A stretch of DNA of 64,000 bases, taken from positions 111,456,941-111,520,940 of the forward strand of contig NC_060246.1 in NCBI RefSeq assembly GCF_921293095.1, read 5' to 3'. The position numbers and the translations under genes were made by a program. Within the stretch, counting starts at the first letter, position 1, and every line of letters begins with the position of its first letter. This document shows, piece after piece, positions 39,591 to 56,900 of the stretch. Source of the DNA: Ischnura elegans. Taxonomy: Eukaryota; Arthropoda; Insecta; Odonata; Coenagrionidae. The notes beneath the pieces were generated by a model, which was not told the DNA's origin, did not search any database, and worked only from the letters and a program-made list of their open reading frames with translations.

Positions 39591-40567
39591 TCAAGCTCCT
39601 TCGGCAGTTTCTTTATTTCCAGATCCAACTGGTCCGTGTCGACGTTCCCAAATAAGTCTATGTTTCTGCTTCATATAAGCTTCTCGAGCACCTCCGTATC
39701 CTCCTAAATCACCGTCTGTGGTAAATGAGAAAGCGATACACCATTAGAAACCACAAAATAAACATTCAAATTTCAACACCTATAAAGCCAGAATATTGAA
39801 ATAATGAATGCTTTATATTACATACAGCACAACTATCTTCCTAATCCCCAAATCTCGCTCGCGTAACTCGATACGAAACTTTGACACACAACATTTTTGC
39901 GGAAAAGTACGGTAAGCCAATTCTTTATAGATGTTTACATACCGTACACAATTACGGCAGAAACCATAGTACAAGGAAATAACCAAGAGCGACAACTTAC
40001 ATTTGATAAACCAATTTTCCGCTGCTTTTTCATACTGCTCAAGAATTTCTTTACATTTCGCAGGAGCATTTGGACCTTCATATAAGGTACAATCTTCGAA
40101 TCGCATTCTCAATATGTTGAGGACAGACGAATCAACCAATCTAAAATACAGAAAAATAACGAACAAGTCATTGCGAAGTACAATAATTACTAGAAAACAC
40201 AGGAATATGTTTCTATAGTATATATGTACGCAATACAGACGGTAAATATCAATCAAACAAACCTATCTCTTTTGAATTGTAAGTTGGCTTCCATTTGGCA
40301 AACGACATCGTCCGTGTAGCACTGGTCAATTGTTGGTACACGGCGAAACTTCTGATGATACCAGTAGTAAGTGGGACGGTTGGGCTCAACAATTTTTTCT
40401 GTAAATTAAGTTTATTTGCGATGAACAGCATTACTATTTCAGAACTGTGGGGGTCCCTTCATCATAATATCCTTACCGCGAAACCACACCACAGGAGCAT
40501 CTATAACAGAGCCGACTGAGTGGAAAAATCTTGCGAGGGGACTTCTTAAACCTGCATCGTCACCCAT
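39591..40567 (-). CDS. ND-PDSW: NADH dehydrogenase (ubiquinone) 1 beta subcomplex subunit 10 (NDUFB10, PDSW subunit)
   Basis: Four coding exons read on the minus strand: 40567-40477, 40398-40263, 40140-40001 and 39715-39591, all with GT-AG borders and matching phases, giving 163 residues and a stop. The protein follows insect PDSW throughout: SPLARFFHSVG near the N-terminus, KFRRVPTIDQCYTDDVVC at 47-64, RFEDCTLYEGP at 89-99, QYEKAAENWFIK at 111-122 and RLIWERRHGPVGSG at 142-155. Cys57/Cys64 (CX6C) and Cys93/Cys105 (CX11C) are the pairs expected to form disulphides in this accessory subunit, which sits on the intermembrane-space side of the complex I membrane arm. There is no signal peptide or membrane helix, as usual for the family. 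The start is the only upstream in-frame ATG near the conserved N-terminus. It is divergent from RpL3, with start codons 235 bp apart. The sequence looks intact and functional. Confidence 0.96.
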
Positions 40568-40802
40568 CCTGATTTATCGTTGGTTAATATCGCTGAAATT
40601 TCCAATACTTGCCCTAAAATTGGTCTTATGATCAGGATACTACGGCCAAATACGAGGGTGCATAACGCCGCCTTACACAGTTTCTTTGTTTCGATCTTCA
40701 TCTGTTGATATTCCTGACACCTAGCGGCAGATGTTGGTTTCGGTATAAAATCTTTATATCCGGCTGTTACGTGGAAGAAGTCTCTGTCGTTCTCTGTTCG
40801 CC
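40568..40802. promoter_or_regulatory. Shared divergent promoter of ND-PDSW and RpL3
   Basis: The 235 bp between the two start codons must hold both 5' UTRs and both core promoters. On the RpL3 side there is a TATA-like TATAAAAT at 40744-40751. About 30 bp downstream come pyrimidine-rich stretches (GTCTCTGTC, GTTCTCTG) that could be the 5'TOP/TCT-type start typical of ribosomal protein genes. No equivalent TATA element is visible on the ND-PDSW side. The exact start sites are inferred, not seen. Confidence 0.6.
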
Positions 40803-43800
40803 ATGGTGAGTAGACGTTACGTGTATCTCTAGATATTTAATGTTATGTGCGTGCATCCGTTTTTTATTTTAAGATCAGTTTATTACAAGTTTAATGACGT
40901 TTCACTTTCCCAATTATAATTGTTTTCAACTATTTTGGATAATATTGTTTTTTTAACGTCAACTTTGGATGTCACGCCACGTGTGTCGTTACCATGATGA
41001 TTTAGAAAACTTTATCCGATAGGGGTTCCTATCTGAGGATGATATTCTAGGGCGGTCTGAATGATGTAATCTATTCTGTTTTAGTTCTCATGTGTTAGAA
41101 TTGCTCTAATTATTTCCGAATTTCAGTCCCATAGGAAATTCAGCGCGCCCCGCCATGGGTCAATGGGTTTCTATCCTAAGAAGCGATCTCAAAGGCACCG
41201 TGGTAAAGTGAAGGCTTTCCCCAAAGATGATCCTTCGAAACCAGTTCATCTTACTGCCTTTATTGGATATAAAGCTGGAATGACCCATGTGGTCAGGGAA
41301 GCCGATCGACCCGGGTCAAGTAAGTTCACTTACAACGTAATCGCGACTTCTATTCGTCATAATGACGGATGCAATGTAGTAGTTTACAATATTGATGCTG
41401 AAGGTTTTCCACTGCCTCGTGGAACCTTTAAGTGGCTCTGGAGTTGTTTGATTTTGTGCAATTATCCTGCCACGGCATCATAGATCAACCGAGCTGCTCT
41501 TCTCGAGTTGAGTGAGGGTCCAGCATATTCCATTTCCTTTCTGGAGTCCATTGGACTGTTACCAGGGAGGCAAACCATGCTGGATACAATTTTTTGCAGA
41601 ATGTATGGTTCAACTTATTTTCTTGCGTTGTGTGGTTTGACACCACGTGGTCTCAAGGTAGGCTGTTGCGCGGGTGATGGTCGAAGTGAAATTAACTTTT
41701 CGTGTACTTTTGAATTTGTGGGCAGGATAATACTCCCGAATAGCATTAACGTGGGATGGATGAATTCTGGCACGTGGAGCTTCGGAAATTAGGGTATTAC
41801 TTTACAAGAGGTACAATCCGGATTTCGACTTCAAACAATCACTTTCCTACAGTATTTTACCGTTCAGTACCGTTTACTGTAAATTAGTGCCGTTGAATCG
41901 GAAAGAGGTTGGAGTTTCCTACTTGAATTTCTAATTGGCCATGTTCTGTGAATTTCTTGAAGTAAGAGTTGTTTCGCAATCGTTCTCCGGGGATCGAATT
42001 CGGTAATGCCGTGGTGTATTATTTTATTCCAATCTCTTAGAAATGACTCTTGCAATAATATGGGATAGCCAGATTGGGTTAGGCGAGTTTTCATCTTCTA
42101 ACATGTTATTGTACGCGAGCGCGCTTATATGGTTATGATACGTACTCTTTTAAGTGTTTAGTCCCGTGCCACACGGCCTGGTGTTTGGTTTGCGAGGTCT
42201 CACGTAGCTGACTGAACCGTTTTCGTGATTACTGGTTATTATGAAGATCATTTAATTCTAGTAAGCAGATGTAACCACCTTCTCAATGATCGGTGATAGG
42301 GTAGGCATCTCATGTTAAGTGGAATAATGAAAGGTTGTAGTATCAGGAAATAGTGCTTTCCCGGCGAATAGACTTAAATGTTCTCGGGATCGCACCAGGA
42401 CAGGAATTGCATAACTAGCCGTTTCGATGTCCGACACGGCCGTCGTCCTCAGGGACGTGTGGACGATGGCCTAATCGGGCATCGAAACTTAGGCAGTTCG
42501 TGACCCGGTGGCGGTCCGGGTATCATTGTACGAAATTTTGGTATCACTTACGCAAGTATTTTGTTCACTACTTCTGTGAGTTAAGCCACGCGTTTCCATC
42601 TCTTGCATTACCTATATGAATGCAATCCGCTGCAGCATTTCAAGTATCCCTGATGGTTTTTGTTGGTACTTTGGGTTAACGGTGAAACTGATATTTATGG
42701 TTAGCAGAGAAATGCACTCGAAAGCACAGTTCTACCGGAAGTACTGGACTAACGTAAGTTTTACTACTCTTCACATTCTGTCCTCTGGTGAGGCTCGTCT
42801 CGGATCTATTGGTATTTTAATCCCATCTTTTCGTCGTCTTGGATTAGGATGTCTCCTCGCATGTGCTTGAAGTATTTTATGTAAGGCTGAGTGGTCATGA
42901 GTTATATCCAAGAGTTAAAGGGGTGCAGGACCTGCCATTGTCTCAATGCTACATTTCACATCTTCATTGTAGGGCATCAATGTACTAGATAACTCATAAT
43001 ATGTATGGAAAAATGTCATGGGGTTTGATTGTTTAATTTTGCCATATTAACCTGCAATATTTCTTGTGAGTGTAATTGTTTGATGTGTGTAGTCGTAATT
43101 GCTAATGCTACTGCTGATTCATGAGATGGCTATTTTCAGCATTGAGCGTATAGTCAGTTTCAATGTAATCTGTAATAATCTAGGGCGTGGAATTAATTTA
43201 TTGAGAAGTTTTGCTATCAGTAGAAACTTCTTAAACAGATTTATTTATGACTGGTTAAAGAATGTGTTATGTTTGGGAAATTTTAGCAATACTAATTACA
43301 AAAGTTTTACCTGGAGTTCAGGTGGTTGACAGGCATGGTTTCTATGTGGGAGTAGACTCCTTTTAATGCCAATATTTGAGCTTAATTATTGCCCTGAATT
43401 TCTGTCAAGAAGCAGTCATAAATGTCATTGTATCAAGATTAAAAATTATTTAATCATTGCTGGGTCTCCACATTCTATGGTTTTATTCTCTATGTTTAGT
43501 AAAGTATATATCTGAATGGTGACTACTGGAATGTATACTGGTATACTGACTACATCAATGAAATGTTATTGCATTCTGAGGATAGCGGCATGGAAAGTGA
43601 GACCTTTTGGGGCCTCTGGGAAACTTGGTGTAATGTGAAGGTAGAACATCTGGTATTTCATAATATTGCTAGGACAGTTTTCATTTGTTGGGATGGCCGT
43701 ACTGACAGATGTGCATTGCAAACATGATATCGTGTGTCACTATCGTTAAATCTTTGGCCATTGGGTCCTGTATTTGAATCCAGGTCATTGCTGTGACTTT

Positions 43801-46800
43801 CATGTGTGTTGACAATCCAAGAGGCTGGAAATGGGGATACTGTTAACTTTGGCTAAACATCATTTGGGTGTGTAGTGTATTCATTGGAAGCTCTGGCAGT
43901 TGGCTGGTCCGTGGCATCCTCCCTATATTTTTCTATTCTATCTGCTATCTATCTCTTATCTCTGTAGTTCATCCAAAGCTGTTGGCTTGCATTTAACCAA
44001 ATCTGTGCCTTTCTCCAATATTCAGGGAGTCTTAAAATTTCTCCCATTCATTAGTGGCCCACTCAGTTTTTTTTTCCTTCAAATCACCCCAGAATGATTT
44101 TCTATTCTCACTATCATCTTCTCTTCTCCTATGCATCCATTTTACTGTCAAGGTCTGTCCAATTCCAGGTCTTTTTTTGACTTTTCACTATTCACACCAG
44201 TGCATGTTCAGTAATGCTGCGTTGGCCTTATATTGAAAATCTTCATACTCTATCCATTCTGTTGTATAATCTTTGCTGTTGCAAATTCCTTTCATTTTTC
44301 ATCATTGCAGTGAGAAACTTAATAAATGGTAGTCAGAATTAAGATAAAATACTTATTTTGATGGTTATCCCATCATTTATTATTATTAACGTAAACTTTT
44401 TATTTTGCAGAGGTAAACAAGAAGGAAATCGTGGAGGCAGTTACTATACTGGAAGCCCCACCAATGGTCATTGTTGGAATTGTGGGCTACATTGAGACTC
44501 CTCATGGTTTGAGGGGTTTAGTGACTGTGTGGGCTGAACACTTGAGTGAAGAGTGCCGAAGGAGATTTTACAAGAACTGGTATGTTTGTGGTTCATTGAA
44601 TGCTTGTGTGTAATCACTTGGTTATGAGTTGTTTTTTAATTTCTGTCAGCTCTCCTCTCAGCTCTTGGCTGATGAGAGCCACATCCCTGGATGTGGGTTC
44701 ACCCCGTGACAGGGAAGAGGGCTGAGTCTCCGCTCAAGTGATGAGGCTACCCTCTATTTATTTGTTTCTATGAATTCTACAGGTATAAGTGCAAAAAGAA
44801 GGCTTTCACCAAAGCCTCAAAGAAGTGGCAAGATGAACTAGGGCGTAAGCAGATTGATAAAGACCTGGCAAAAATGAAGAGATACTGCAAAGTCATTAGA
44901 GTGATTGCTCATACACAGGTAAGAAGTTTTATAATATAGGTTTTTTAGTGTTAATTTCATGTTGTAGATACTAGAATGTGCTTCCTCAAGCTCATTCGTT
45001 TGGCTAATGGACTCCATAGGATTGGAGCAACCCTGCCTCAGTATCTTATAGTAACTGATGCTTACCTTGACTGAGTGAGCATTGGCACAGCATATTCCAT
45101 AATCTTCAGTAGCTCATTGAGTTATGACCTTGGAGACAAACCATGTTGTGTACATTTTTTGGAATTGCCATAGGAATTTAGTTATGTGGTGGAAATTTTT
45201 TTGGAATTGCAAGGTGGAAATACTTAAATTTCTGTTGAGGAGCAGTAATTTACTTTAGCATGGTTTTTCATGTTGCTATTTTTGTGTTGATGCGTGCAGT
45301 GCCACTAATCATGAGTGGCCTTTGCAAAATCATTCAAATTGTAGAGTACATGTACTTGAAAAGCTTGACTAATTGTATGATGAGGCCAAAAACTATTTTA
45401 TTCCATGTTTCTAAGCAGCCGATAGGAAAATTAAAGAAATAGTTGGTCTTCAGATTTATTGAACCTGTTACTTTAACTAACTAGATTTAATGAAACTGTA
45501 TTGAAGTAATTTTTAGCTACTGAGAATTGTTGTAGAGTTCCTTGCTGATTCCTTTGAGTAATTAGCTGGTTATTGACCTTCATTAGTATGTGCGTTTGAC
45601 ATATAATGAAGAAGCTCAAGTGGCTATATAATGTGAGAAGATGGTATTGATAATGTTGAGTCAGTTTTACACAATCATCATGCCTTTCTCGACTGCTTGC
45701 ATCATTATTTACTGTAGGTAGGTGGAAGTTAGGCATAGCTTTTGTTGTGCGTAAATTGAATTGTTTGTTTGGCAATAATTTAATTCATACCTGTATCAGC
45801 AATACTCTGCACAGAATTCATGCCTTTATTTGTGTACTATTTGAGTCCTGAAAGTTGGCCACTTGAATTTGGCTACTGGTCAAATATTGTTTGAGTGTAC
45901 TGGCTGTTTTTTTGTGAAGTGGTTGGTATTTAGGGGAAATTCAATGTCTGCTTTCGAAGAAAGTGCTTTGATGATGGTCCTGTTTTGTTGGTGGGGTAAT
46001 TAACTTGATGACCAGTGTATTTTATACTGATACCTGATATTGCAGATGAAGTTGTTGAAGAAGCGCCAAAAGAAGGCCCACATCATGGAGATTCAAGTTA
46101 ATGGTGGCACCATCGAACAGAAGGTTGACTGGGCTCGTGAGCATCTCGAGCAGCCTCTGCCAGTGTCTCAAGTGTTTGCTCAGGATGAGATGATTGATGT
46201 CATTGGTGTCACCAAAGGCAAAGGGTACAAAGGTTAGTTTCTGAATATTGCTTTGTTTGTATAAATTTAATGATGAATGCATCGCGCACTGAATTAAATG
46301 TGGATGTTCACATGCTGCCTTCCTACTGACACTTATTTGCAGTTTGCTCCTGCTGCCTGTTGTAAGCCTTGTTTAATTGTGCTAATCTTTCCAGGTGTTA
46401 CATCAAGGTGGCACACAAAGAAGCTGCCTCGCAAGACTCACAAGGGTTTGCGCAAGGTGGCTTGCATTGGTGCATGGCATCCGTCAAGAGTGCAGTTCAC
46501 TGTTGCACGAGCTGGTCAAAAGGGCTATCATCATAGGACTGAGATGAACAAGAAGATTTATCGCATTGGGCAGGGAATTCATACGAAGGATGGCAAGGTA
46601 TGACGAGTTTTTCATTTTGTTTTAATTCTCTGTGCTATTCTCTTTATCCCTTCATTTTTTTCAGTTGGCTTCTTAATGGCTTTGTCATTCCTTACAGCCT
46701 TTAAATTGTTTTATTTCTCTGGTACAGTTGGCCAGCTGTGCTAATTTCATGCCTTTCGTGCCTATCCTGATATGACATCCTCACACAGTACTCATTGTTA

Positions 46801-47613
46801 ACTTCATTTACCCTGTATTAAAAACCAAAGGTTGTCTTACACACAAAAGAGGAAGCTAAATAGTGTCTACCATTTGCCTTTGAAAATCATGCAATAAAGA
46901 GAGGGAAACCAGTGCCTTTTCCCTGAGCCACATGTGAAACTTATTTTTTTACTACAGATTTTTTTCCTTCAACTTATGTAATAATCCCACTATACACACT
47001 GTCCTTTCCGTAAAAGGAAGTGTATTGATTGTATCATTTCAGCCTAATTGGTGTCCACAATGATATTAATGGTTAATCATTTTGATCCACAGGTGGTGAA
47101 GAATAATGCAGCTACTGAGTATGATTTAACTGAGAAAACAATCACTCCCATGGGAGGTTTCCCTCACTATGGTGAGGTTAATAATGACTATGTAATGCTT
47201 AAGGGTTGTTGCATGGGTCCCAAGAAGAGGGTGATCACCTTGAGGAAGGTAATGACTTTTCCCTTCTTTATTTCTTGCCTTATTCACGTGATGATATTAA
47301 TAGAGCCAAGACATTTGAAATATGACTCAATGTGATATTTAATGATAGGACTGATGTTGTTTTATAATTCAACATTTTCTGTTAAGTGGGAAATGGGTGG
47401 TAATGGATTGTTTTTTTCCTCTTTCAGTCACTGCTGACTCATACAAAGAGATCCGCTTTGGAGAAGATCAATCTGAAGTTCATTGATACATCATCCAAAT
47501 TTGGTCATGGTCGCTTCCAAACTGCTGCCGACAAGGCTACCTTCATGGGTCCTCTTAAGAAGGACAGAATCAAGGAAGCTGCAGCAGCTGCGACTGCTAC
47601 AGCTGCATCATAA
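40803..47613 (+). CDS. RpL3: 60S ribosomal protein L3 (uL3)
   Basis: Eight coding exons: 40803-40805 (ATG only), 41127-41319, 44411-44579, 44783-44918, 46046-46232, 46395-46597, 47093-47248 and 47428-47613. All junctions are GT-AG, phases join cleanly, and the total is 410 residues, normal for eukaryotic L3. The protein starts [20 protein letters not shown] and carries the invariant [18 protein letters not shown] segment (230-247), including the His245 that is methylated in human RPL3, then [14 protein letters not shown]. It ends in the Lys/Ala-rich tail usual in insects. L3 is an early-binding 60S protein whose central extension reaches the peptidyl transferase centre. The split just after the initiator ATG is common in ribosomal protein genes. 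Introns 1, 2, 4, 5 and 7 each contain a snoRNA candidate, so the pre-mRNA appears to be a snoRNA host. An AATAAA follows the stop. Confidence 0.98.
40990..41065 (+). ncRNA. C/D-box snoRNA in RpL3 intron 1 (predicted 18S rRNA 2'-O-methylation guide)
   Basis: Box C ATGATGA is at 40994-41000, D' CTGA at 41033-41036, a C'-like ATGATAT at 41039-41045 and box D CTGA at 41057-41060, a 67-nt C-to-D span typical of insects. The ten bases directly before box D (CTAGGGCGGT, 41047-41056) are fully complementary to ACCGCCCUAG of arthropod 18S rRNA as I recall it. By the fifth-nucleotide rule the methylated base would be the C after ACCG. Seven of these pairs would also fit the ACCGCCC near the 18S 3' end that vertebrate U43 targets. 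The flanking terminal stem is weak (only GTTA/TAAT-like pairing). The position inside the first intron of a ribosomal protein gene is classic for such RNAs. Confidence 0.75.
41519..41591 (+). ncRNA. H/ACA-box snoRNA 3' hairpin in RpL3 intron 2
   Basis: The lower stem TCCAGCAT (41519-41526) pairs perfectly with ATGCTGGA (41577-41584) and is followed by T and an ACA box (41586-41588) three bases from the presumed 3' end. The upper stem CCTTTCTGG (41536-41544) pairs with CCAGGGAGG (41562-41570) and is capped by AGTCC/GGACT. Between them is a pocket with left strand ATTCCATTT and right strand CAAACC. The upper stem lies 15 nt from ACA, the canonical distance for pseudouridine guides. The 5' half, starting about 41485, is less clear: CAAC-GAG/CTC-GTTG could be its hairpin, and a good H box is not seen. 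The target RNA is not identified. It has a structural twin in intron 4. Confidence 0.65.
42421..42488. repeat. Inverted duplicate with hammerhead-like core (Penelope-type fragment) in RpL3 intron 2
   Basis: GTTTCGATG...CGTCGTCC at 42421-42448 is repeated in inverted form as GGACGATGG...CATCGAAAC, ending at 42488. On the minus strand the left arm reads CTGAGGA, a GAYG/CATC stem, then GAAAC, followed by GGCTA and GTT. On the plus strand the right arm reads a degraded version of the same, GAAAC, then TTAGGCA and GTT. CUGANGA plus GAAAC is the hammerhead ribozyme core, known from Penelope-like element terminal repeats. An extra C after CUGAGGA and the lack of a visible stem I argue against present activity. 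Confidence 0.5.
45086..45157 (+). ncRNA. H/ACA-box snoRNA 3' hairpin in RpL3 intron 4, paralogue of the intron 2 RNA
   Basis: The lower stem CACAGCAT (45086-45093) pairs with ATGTTGTG (45143-45150), with one G-U pair, then T and an ACA box at 45152-45154. The upper stem TCTTCAG/CTTGGAGA encloses AGCTC/GAGTT. The pocket strands are ATTCCATAA and CAAACC, again 15 nt from ACA. Compared with intron 2, the guide bases ATTCCAT and CAAACC are unchanged while stem bases differ on both sides in ways that keep pairing. A 5' hairpin closed by CTCAGT/ACTGAG (about 45036-45074) is possible. It is most likely a duplicated guide with the same target; the target is unknown to me. Confidence 0.65.
46265..46334 (+). 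ncRNA. C/D-box snoRNA in RpL3 intron 5, U83-type 18S rRNA guide
   Basis: Box C ATGATGA is at 46270-46276, D' CTGA at 46289-46292, a weak C' near 46301-46307 and box D CTGA at 46326-46329. AAAT and ATTT flank the boxes as a short terminal stem. TGCTGCCTTCCT (46313-46324), one base before box D, is complementary over 12 bp to AGGAAGGCAGCA of 18S rRNA, a stretch conserved across eukaryotes. The fifth base upstream of box D selects the A in AGGA. As I recall, vertebrate U83 (SNORD83A/B) uses the same guide in the same register for 18S Am468 and is also encoded in RPL3 introns. The intron is only 162 bp, leaving about 65 bp to the acceptor, as expected for an intronic C/D RNA. Confidence 0.82.
47283..47359 (+). 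ncRNA. Candidate C/D-box snoRNA in RpL3 intron 7, target unknown
   Basis: A perfect box C GTGATGA (47288-47294) and box D CTGA (47351-47354) lie 67 nt apart in a 179-bp intron. A GTGATAT (47332-47338) could be C' and an ATGA just upstream a degenerate D'. The bases before box D (TTTAATGATAGGA) show only short matches to rRNA that I can recall, and the terminal stem is poor. It is weaker than the intron 1 and intron 5 candidates. Support comes mainly from box quality, spacing and the snoRNA-rich host gene. Confidence 0.45.
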
Positions 47614-53927: not shown

Positions 53928-56900
53928 ATGGATCAAGTTCCTCAGTTCTCTAGCAAAGACGAAGAAATTCAATATTGGAAATGTTTGGCAATGCAGTACC
54001 AAAAAGGGTATGTAATTGCGCTTCTGTTTTTTGTCACACGTACTTAATTTTTTTTTCAATCGATGACTGTAATGAGATTGTATATGTTAGCGTTTCAGTA
54101 GAAGTAAGTTTGAGATGACCTACTTCGTTGCCCTTCGCTCATGTTTGGCAATCAATTTAGACGTGAAAATGACAAGTATTGTGCAAACACCACATTATTT
54201 GTTATTAGCGTGTATCACTCATTGTGCTAATGGTGTAAAGATTGTACTTCATCTGCTTTAGTGTTACATAGTAAGCCATATTTTGATCTTTTAAGTGTGC
54301 AAGGTACATTCGTCATTTCAAATAAATGGAATTTGAGAAAAGGCATTACTTAACCATTTTTCCTGTTTGAGTTGCTGGGTGTGGCATCAATAATATTATT
54401 AATATCAAAATTATATCTGCTTTTATTTTTCTAGGATGCAAGAGGCGAGAGAGGAGTTAGATGAATTTCAGGAGAATTCTCGTGAGTTGGAACAAGAGCT
54501 GGAAGCTCAATTAGACCAGGTTGACCAGCGTAACAGAGATCTATGTTCTATCAATAATCGTCTTCAGCTAGAACTGGAGGCAACTAGAGATAAACTCGAC
54601 CAAGTGCAAAAGGATACGGAGGCACAAATTTCTGACATCCAAGCACAACTCTCTGGATATCGTAGTAGAGAAGACGAATGGCATAGGTATATTAGGGAGT
54701 TAGAGCAAGCTAACGATGATTTAGAGCGAGCTAAAAGGTAAGAGGGGTTTCTTATGGATTCTATTTGCCTTGTATTTAGTTCTTGATTAACGTCGATTTT
54801 TTATTTTCAGGGCAATGCTTGTGTCAGTTGAAGATTTTGAGTCGAGACTAAATCTAGCTATTGAGCGAAATGCATTCCTTGAATCAGAATTGGACGAGAA
54901 AGAAAGTTTAAGGACAATGGTGCAGAGGCTGAAGGATGAAGCCAGAGGTAATTACCTTTATAATATCATGTTCATTGGTATTAAAGTTCCTACTTAATTC
55001 TTAGTCCAGTGCACTGCTCTCCTTAGGAGGCAGACAATCGGAAAATATGGATTTTCTTTTTGGTGGTAATTGTAATTGATGCAAAATAGGTTATATATAT
55101 GTTTGATGCATTTGTGCTTAAGGCAGTGTTAAGCCCTTGATATATGGTAAATAATAATTTATGATTGAATTTGTGAATTTACAAATGCAGCATGTAACAG
55201 CCCAACTTTATGTTTGACTGGAATATACAGCGTGCTCTAATTTGGTTCAAGCATTTGTGCACTATCTCTTCCTGTCATTAGAAATTGTTCATGCATTCAC
55301 ATATTAATATGCATGGGTTATTGTATCTTGAAACCAGGCCTTGAGATAATAATAAATTTCTAGAAAATGTAGCTTTTCATGACCAGAGTATGCATTGACT
55401 GCAACGAGGAAGCTTCATAGGTATATGTCATGCTTTCTGTTGGTGTTAGCATTCATTCCGAAGGAAATGAGGCACTTGACTGTTTCTTCAGACATCCATC
55501 TGTCTAATTGCCTGAGGCCCATAGGAGAATAGGGGTTGTCTCATGTCTGCCTCTTTGGAGTTCATCTCCTCTGAGGAAATGGGTGTAACAACAATCATTT
55601 TAAAACAAGGATGTCAATAACATTATTAATATATTTCTCCAAGGTGGCAACATATTTAGGAAGAGAAAATTTGCGGTTTCTTTTAGCATATTTTCCTTAT
55701 TTCTCGGCTATATGCTCAAAAACTCAATCTTTTTAGTACATAGAATGTAATTAAGTATATGGTAATAATGTCTTTCACTTAGGCAACATGCTCTAACCCA
55801 TCCCAAGACCCAGCCCACCTAGAAATTCCACTTCTTCCCAATATCCAAAATTCAGGCACAAAATTTCCATTCCGTTAGCATGATCAACAACCATAGTAAC
55901 AGGTGTAACATTGAAGATTCATGGCAAAGTGAAACTCACCTCTAACCCTGCCATCTGGTGGCCAAATTGGGAAACTCTCAGTCTGTGGGGTTTTGAGTTC
56001 ACTTCAGTGAAAGAAAATGACTTAAAGGTTTTATTTTTTAACAGTAATATCCATAAAATTACATATGCATATACCTACTGGGTAGCAACTTAAGCATCTG
56101 AAAAACTTGAAATCAATGAGAAGTGATCAAAAAATAGTTGATCTGGTGGTACCTGAAAGTGTACATATATATACCTTACATTTCATTATTCATTATATTG
56201 TACTATATTCACTTCATGTCTGCGAGTGAGCTTTTGTGAGAGCCTGGACACAATCGGAAGGCTTCGCTAATGTGGTTGTGGTAGTACTGAGGGGGAGAGG
56301 AGGAGTGAACTTAATGTCACCAAATGTACATAGCCACCCTGCTTAGTCCCGAAAAATGTGTGAGTCATGGTTGGCCACAGTTATTTGGCCCCGGCACCAA
56401 GACAACAGACCTACTCAATTGGAAGATATAGATGATAATCCTTTCACAGAAGCCCCATGACATTGTTAGCTACCATACTGAATTAGGCATTTTTGGTGAA
56501 AGGCATACTCAAAGGCATAAAAGGAGAACGCATGAGGTTTGGCTACACTGCTCCATGAGCAGATCCATTATGTTAACTCGATGGAGGTCTGAGAGCGACT
56601 GACTGAGGCCACGCCTGACGTTTGCTGATTGGTAAAGGGAAAGTCACTTGTCGAGAAACTTTCCAGCCCCTCACCCCCTCTTGCTTTGGTCACATCAGCT
56701 CACCCACAAAGATAAAATGAACGGAGAATAGATTTGATTAATTACTATTTGAGAATGTTGGTATAACGGTGGATAGTATCAGAAGTGGTTATATTTATTT
56801 TTTTATTCTTACTGATCCATTTGCCTAGTGCATGAAACCGCCTACATTAGTGTGTGCTTAGCTTTGATTCAAGCCTTCCCTACTTGCTTCTTCGTTTGTT

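Follow-up and report, generated by a model that had tools for sequence, protein, structure and literature searches.

Two diverged candidate U17/snR30 (SNORA73) snoRNAs in RpL3 introns 2 and 4 of Ischnura elegans

The window analyzed here, a stretch of 64,000 nt from Ischnura elegans NC_060246.1, contains the gene of the ribosomal protein RpL3 (uL3), whose coding region on the plus strand (40803..47613) comprises eight exons (40803-40805, 41127-41319, 44411-44579, 44783-44918, 46046-46232, 46395-46597, 47093-47248 and 47428-47613) and encodes 410 amino acids. The splice junctions were read by hand from the sequence and the joined frame is open. As best PDB matches of the 410-residue product the 60S L3 chains 6xu6_CB and 4v6w_CB were obtained (E about 2e-242), which we take to be Drosophila structures. 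Intron 2 (41320-44410) and intron 4 (44919-46045) each host one of the two RNAs described in the following. Directly upstream of RpL3 and in opposite orientation lies an ORF with an NDUFB10 domain (39816-40256, minus strand; Pfam PF10249, E 7.3e-11), representing the gene of a complex I subunit. A coiled-coil ORF is found at 54436-54738 on the plus strand; its Tropomyosin score of 23.8 bits is under the Pfam cut-off of 38.6, and it presumably resembles NudE.

U17/snR30/SNORA73 has long been known to help build the small ribosomal subunit, SNORA73 being U17, the animal snR30. Comparison of the whole window with Rfam unveiled a single match at gathering level, namely SNORA73 in RpL3 intron 2 (copy 1, 41392..41591, plus strand), which scored 75.5 bits against RF00045 and thus 1.5 bits above the gathering score of 74. 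A search of the region 40500-47500 at a permissive threshold returned, as second match by E-value, a copy in intron 4 (copy 2, 44965..45157, plus strand) with 45.2 bits (E 9.1e-9 in 7,001 bases), which is under the gathering score; the third match had an E-value of 0.091. Both copies cover the model completely (positions 1-219 of 219), corresponding to lengths of 200 nt for copy 1 and 193 nt for copy 2. The initial annotation had proposed paralogous H/ACA RNAs in these two introns, and both of its hairpins, 3.6 kb apart, are indeed present with their structure kept. Both hairpins form the 3' halves of longer RNAs (193-200 nt) that also comprise a 5' domain and an H box, and a transcript of 130-150 nt, as expected at that time, would be too short.

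An H box of the form ANANNA and an ACA box with a spacing of 15 nt (published: 14-16 nt from the pocket top) were found in both copies, all elements lying on the plus strand. The H box of copy 1 (AGATCA, 41482..41487) is located 3' of the 5' domain stem and that of copy 2 reads ATAGTA (45048..45053). In the minimum-energy fold of copy 2 the H box is unpaired and followed by an internal hairpin (45055-45085), and in that of copy 1 the corresponding internal hairpin extends into the H box, whose final three bases are paired. The pocket of the 3' hairpin is formed by ATATTCCAT (41525..41533 in copy 1, with the same letters at 45092..45100 in copy 2) and by a strand containing AAACCAT (41572..41578 and, again with identical letters, 45138..45144); the ACA boxes (41586..41588 and 45152..45154) follow 15 nt past the start of CAAACC. 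As already noticed in the initial annotation, ATTCCAT, CAAACC and the distance to ACA are common to both hairpins; this paired pattern has two occurrences in the window and none in 100 dinucleotide shuffles.

These strands can be compared with the m1 and m2 motifs of U17 as tabulated for 14 organisms in a review (PMC7601244), where m1 AUAUUCCUA and m2 AAACCAU are listed for most of the organisms. The m2 motif of both copies is the m2 of all 14 rows of that table. The m1 motif of both copies reads AUAUUCCAU, the first seven of its nine letters being those of the vertebrate form published there, and it ends with CAU, versus CUA, CUU or CUG in the table (PMC7601244).

The lower stem below the pocket pairs TCCAGCAT with ATGCTGGA in copy 1 (41519-41526/41577-41584) and CACAGCAT with ATGTTGTG in copy 2 (45086-45093/45143-45150), both on the plus strand. 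Between the copies two of the eight lower-stem pairs have both partners replaced without loss of pairing, one is altered on one side and five are unchanged. For the complete 3' hairpin, counted on the predicted fold of copy 1, the 22 pairs divide into six with two-sided changes, two with one-sided changes, 12 invariant ones and two which are broken in one copy. Of the 43 cells, 41 (95.3%) are paired, compared to 34.9-46.5% when the partners are slid by 1-3 columns. The initial annotation had regarded the lower-stem changes as strong evidence for a selected RNA structure; the covariation itself was found as described, and its weight may be rated as moderate, because 14 of 500 letter shuffles equalled the observed values and the comparison comprises two sequences. 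Furthermore, the 3' hairpins fold more stably than their shuffles, with z -3.8 for copy 1 (0/300 shuffles as stable) and z -2.3 for copy 2 (6/300), and the same holds for the 5' domains (z -4.2 with 0/300 for copy 1 and z -2.8 with 4/300 for copy 2). A covariance model built from the two 3' hairpins gave five matches in the window, which were the two input copies and three others with E-values of at least 1.8.

Alignment of the two copies along their whole length gives 112 identities in 195 positions (57%), with 39/85 in the 5' domain, 19/35 between the domains and 54/75 in the 3' hairpin. The sole significant similarity of introns 2 and 4 (41466-41594 versus 45032-45160, E 1.7e-11; next best E 0.098) corresponds to the 3' part of the RNA and stops three bases beyond the 3' end of each copy.

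From these sequence features, the two RNAs are almost certainly U17/snR30 (SNORA73) box H/ACA snoRNAs, and would represent diverged paralogues from RpL3 introns 2 and 4. They share with RF00045 the full-length covariance match, m1 and m2, the H and ACA boxes and the 15-nt spacing, and judged by their letters the pocket strands ATATTCCAT and CAAACCAT are U17 m1 and m2 as given in the review (PMC7601244). Against this assignment speak the score of copy 2 under the gathering level together with its 5' domain (39/85 identical to copy 1), the margin of only 1.5 bits for copy 1 together with the paired last three bases of its H box, and the m1 end CAU, which is outside the forms of the review's table (PMC7601244). 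The initial annotation had instead suspected guides that may be undescribed. Read as undescribed pseudouridylation guides, the RNAs would address the canonical target GGUUUG-U-N-AUGGAAU, and their H/ACA architecture, pocket and 15-nt spacing are those of modification guides. This reading is highly improbable, since both copies match SNORA73 over the full length (copy 1 above the gathering score) and the pocket strands are identical to the m1 and m2 of the review (PMC7601244). Besides, the target sequence (GGTTTG-T-N-ATGGAAT) found at best a match with 4 mismatches in 14 positions, and its canonical order within 80 nt was present in none of three rRNA-bearing loci, to which the scan was confined and in which 18S is covered, 28S extends to model position 1,889 of 3,401 and 4,589 of the 7,089 bases of one locus (L001) are N. 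Within these three loci a canonical target was rejected; the complements are near each other there solely in the inverse order of U17. The target had been unplaceable because a canonical guide was assumed, whereas m1 and m2 of U17 pair basally in the pocket, in inverse order and without pseudouridylation.

As described in the corresponding section of the review, m1 and m2 of U17 pair with rm1 and rm2 in expansion segment 6 (ES6) of the 18S rRNA (PMC7601244). In yeast, which provides an independent comparison, rm1 is located at 801-806 and rm2 at 836-841, and the construct printed in the respective study reads GGAATA at rm1 and TGGTTT at rm2, the complements of TATTCC and AAACCA (PMC9176245); the m1 of the window lengthens the yeast rm1 duplex to 8 bp (799-806). 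At ES6 of yeast and of all three other eukaryotic 18S sequences considered, each of them from outside this species, rm1 lies upstream of rm2. In the three rRNA-bearing loci (L001, L002 and L003) two tandem ATGGAATA, the complement of TATTCCAT, begin 28-37 nt upstream of TGGTTT; the loci were found with a pattern derived from the ES6 region, so that the presence of GGAATA, of the second ATGGAATA and of TGGTTT follows from the pattern itself. Within these loci the two complements (ATGGAATA and TGGTTT) occur within 80 nt of each other nowhere but at ES6, in either order. The first GGAATA is preceded by AT in all three, which fits the m1 of the window and gives it an 8-bp complement there, and TAGGAATA, the complement of the vertebrate m1, is absent from them. 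Insect 18S has GCATGGAATAATGG as well, and human 18S has GCTAGGAATAATGG. If these letters are right, the difference at the end of m1, CAU versus CUA, would be compensatory between snoRNA and rRNA. The three loci are contigs in bacterial metagenome-assembled genomes that bear eukaryotic rRNA, apparently by contamination of the bins; scans of viral contigs contained no 18S.

Having weighed the family assignment, it has to be considered whether both copies work. Copy 2 could be a decaying duplicate of a working copy 1, in line with its lower score (45.2 versus 75.5 bits), the weaker folding of its 3' hairpin (z -2.3 versus -3.8) and its diverged 5' domain. Its m1, m2, H box, ACA box and spacing are all intact though, 41/43 hairpin cells pair with six two-sided changes, and introns 2 and 4 are otherwise without significant similarity; a neutral copy diverged to this degree (112/195) would be expected to carry broken motifs. 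We consider such a decay unlikely, and take copy 2 to be probably working because its tested motifs are preserved together with nearly all of its pairing. Going further, the copies might be two old, structurally distinct U17 isoforms in one ribosomal protein gene, whose 5' domains would have different contacts or expression and whose m1 would have co-evolved with an AUG-type rm1 over 8 bp. In this case the pairing could perhaps use either register of the two tandem ATGGAATA in ES6, and in the second one copy 1 would reach 9 bp; this more elaborate scenario is likewise rather improbable.

An intronic position in a ribosomal protein host and two copies per host have counterparts among known U17 RNAs. 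According to the review, human U17a and U17b lie in two introns of one host, Xenopus U17 occupies all six introns of S8, and human U17 measures 207 nt, which is near the 200 and 193 nt found here (PMC7601244). The host differs, being RpL3 here versus U17HG in human and S8 in Xenopus (PMC7601244), as does the m1 end CAU of both copies. Furthermore, the copies of the window are 57% identical (112/195), unlike SNORA73A and SNORA73B, for which 97% is stated (PMC8410784). A host with multiple copies is thus ordinary, because human U17a/U17b and Xenopus S8 have multiple copies as well, and it is the degree of divergence between the copies which is the unusual part. Among the titles and abstracts listed from the open-licence literature, none describes an insect U17 or a U17 within introns of RpL3, and U17, snR30, SNORA73 and RpL3 do not occur in the main text of a study on Drosophila snoRNA expression (PMC13228274). 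For the fly, 27 cytoplasmic ribosomal protein genes with snoRNAs in their introns are reported in a passage which does not name RpL3 (PMC2246290), and the relevant passages on chicken (PMC2653536) and sponges (PMC3412847) contain nothing bearing on U17 in RPL3.

Other introns of RpL3 gave matches to further snoRNAs, all on the plus strand and under the gathering scores of their families. In intron 1 a box C/D candidate resembling snoU43 (40994-41064; 30.7 bits, gathering 45, E 0.14) exhibits a C box ATGATGA and a D box CTGA, and its 10-nt guide CTAGGGCGGT is complementary to ACCGCCCTAG in the 18S of L001 and L003 (L002 holds the first part of 18S only). Human SNORD43 is likewise described as residing in RPL3 (PMC6466398). 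A box C/D candidate in intron 7 (47281-47358; 31.7 bits, gathering 60, E 0.77) resembles Drosophila snoMe28S-A3420, and its other half carries a 12-nt complement (AGACATTTGAAA) to the 18S in L002. The very weak match to snoU83B in intron 5 (46261-46336; 19.1 bits, gathering 35, E 3) has probably arisen by chance; human U83A/B are placed in RPL3 introns 5 and 7 in the passage concerned (PMC3412847).

For the U17 copies a mode of action can be proposed in analogy to yeast. There, as described in the parts of the study relevant here, snR30, together with Cbf5-Gar1-Nop10-Nhp2, binds the pre-18S subdomain that contains ES6 and prevents a premature formation of the mature ES6 by rm1 and rm2 (PMC12095548). 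It also helps to recruit Krr1, Utp23 and Kri1, and integration into the 90S is blocked by it up to its release (PMC12095548). We infer that this mechanism would apply to both copies in the RpL3 introns. From its introns 2 and 4 the RpL3 pre-mRNA would thus give rise to RNAs trimmed to about 193-200 nt, to which the H/ACA core proteins would bind. With m1 and m2, located at the base of the 3' hairpin pocket, each RNA would clamp rm1 and rm2 of ES6 in the pre-rRNA and hold this region in an immature fold, as for yeast snR30. The clamp would thereby aid the recruitment of assembly factors and permit the early 18S cleavages, without any pseudouridine being made. Like canonical H/ACA guides, the RNAs have hairpin, pocket and H/ACA boxes and would presumably share the core proteins; unlike in these guides, the rRNA pairing of U17 is basal in the pocket and directs no modification (PMC7601244, PMC12095548). 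By this analogy, both copies are predicted to be expressed, processed and bound by proteins, and to act on the 18S of the species itself.

The annotation of U17 within introns of RpL3 is new, well supported and ordinary in kind, and mildly new are the m1 ending with CAU and the identity of only 57% between the copies. What had appeared as an unknown guide would be U17, a snoRNA needed for early 18S processing, placed in RpL3, and the Rfam cut-off misses copy 2 although its functional motifs are kept. Compared with the vertebrate form, the m1 variant AUAUUCCAU is a better fit to an AUG-type 18S, and may offer a small natural test of the pairing rule between m1 and rm1.
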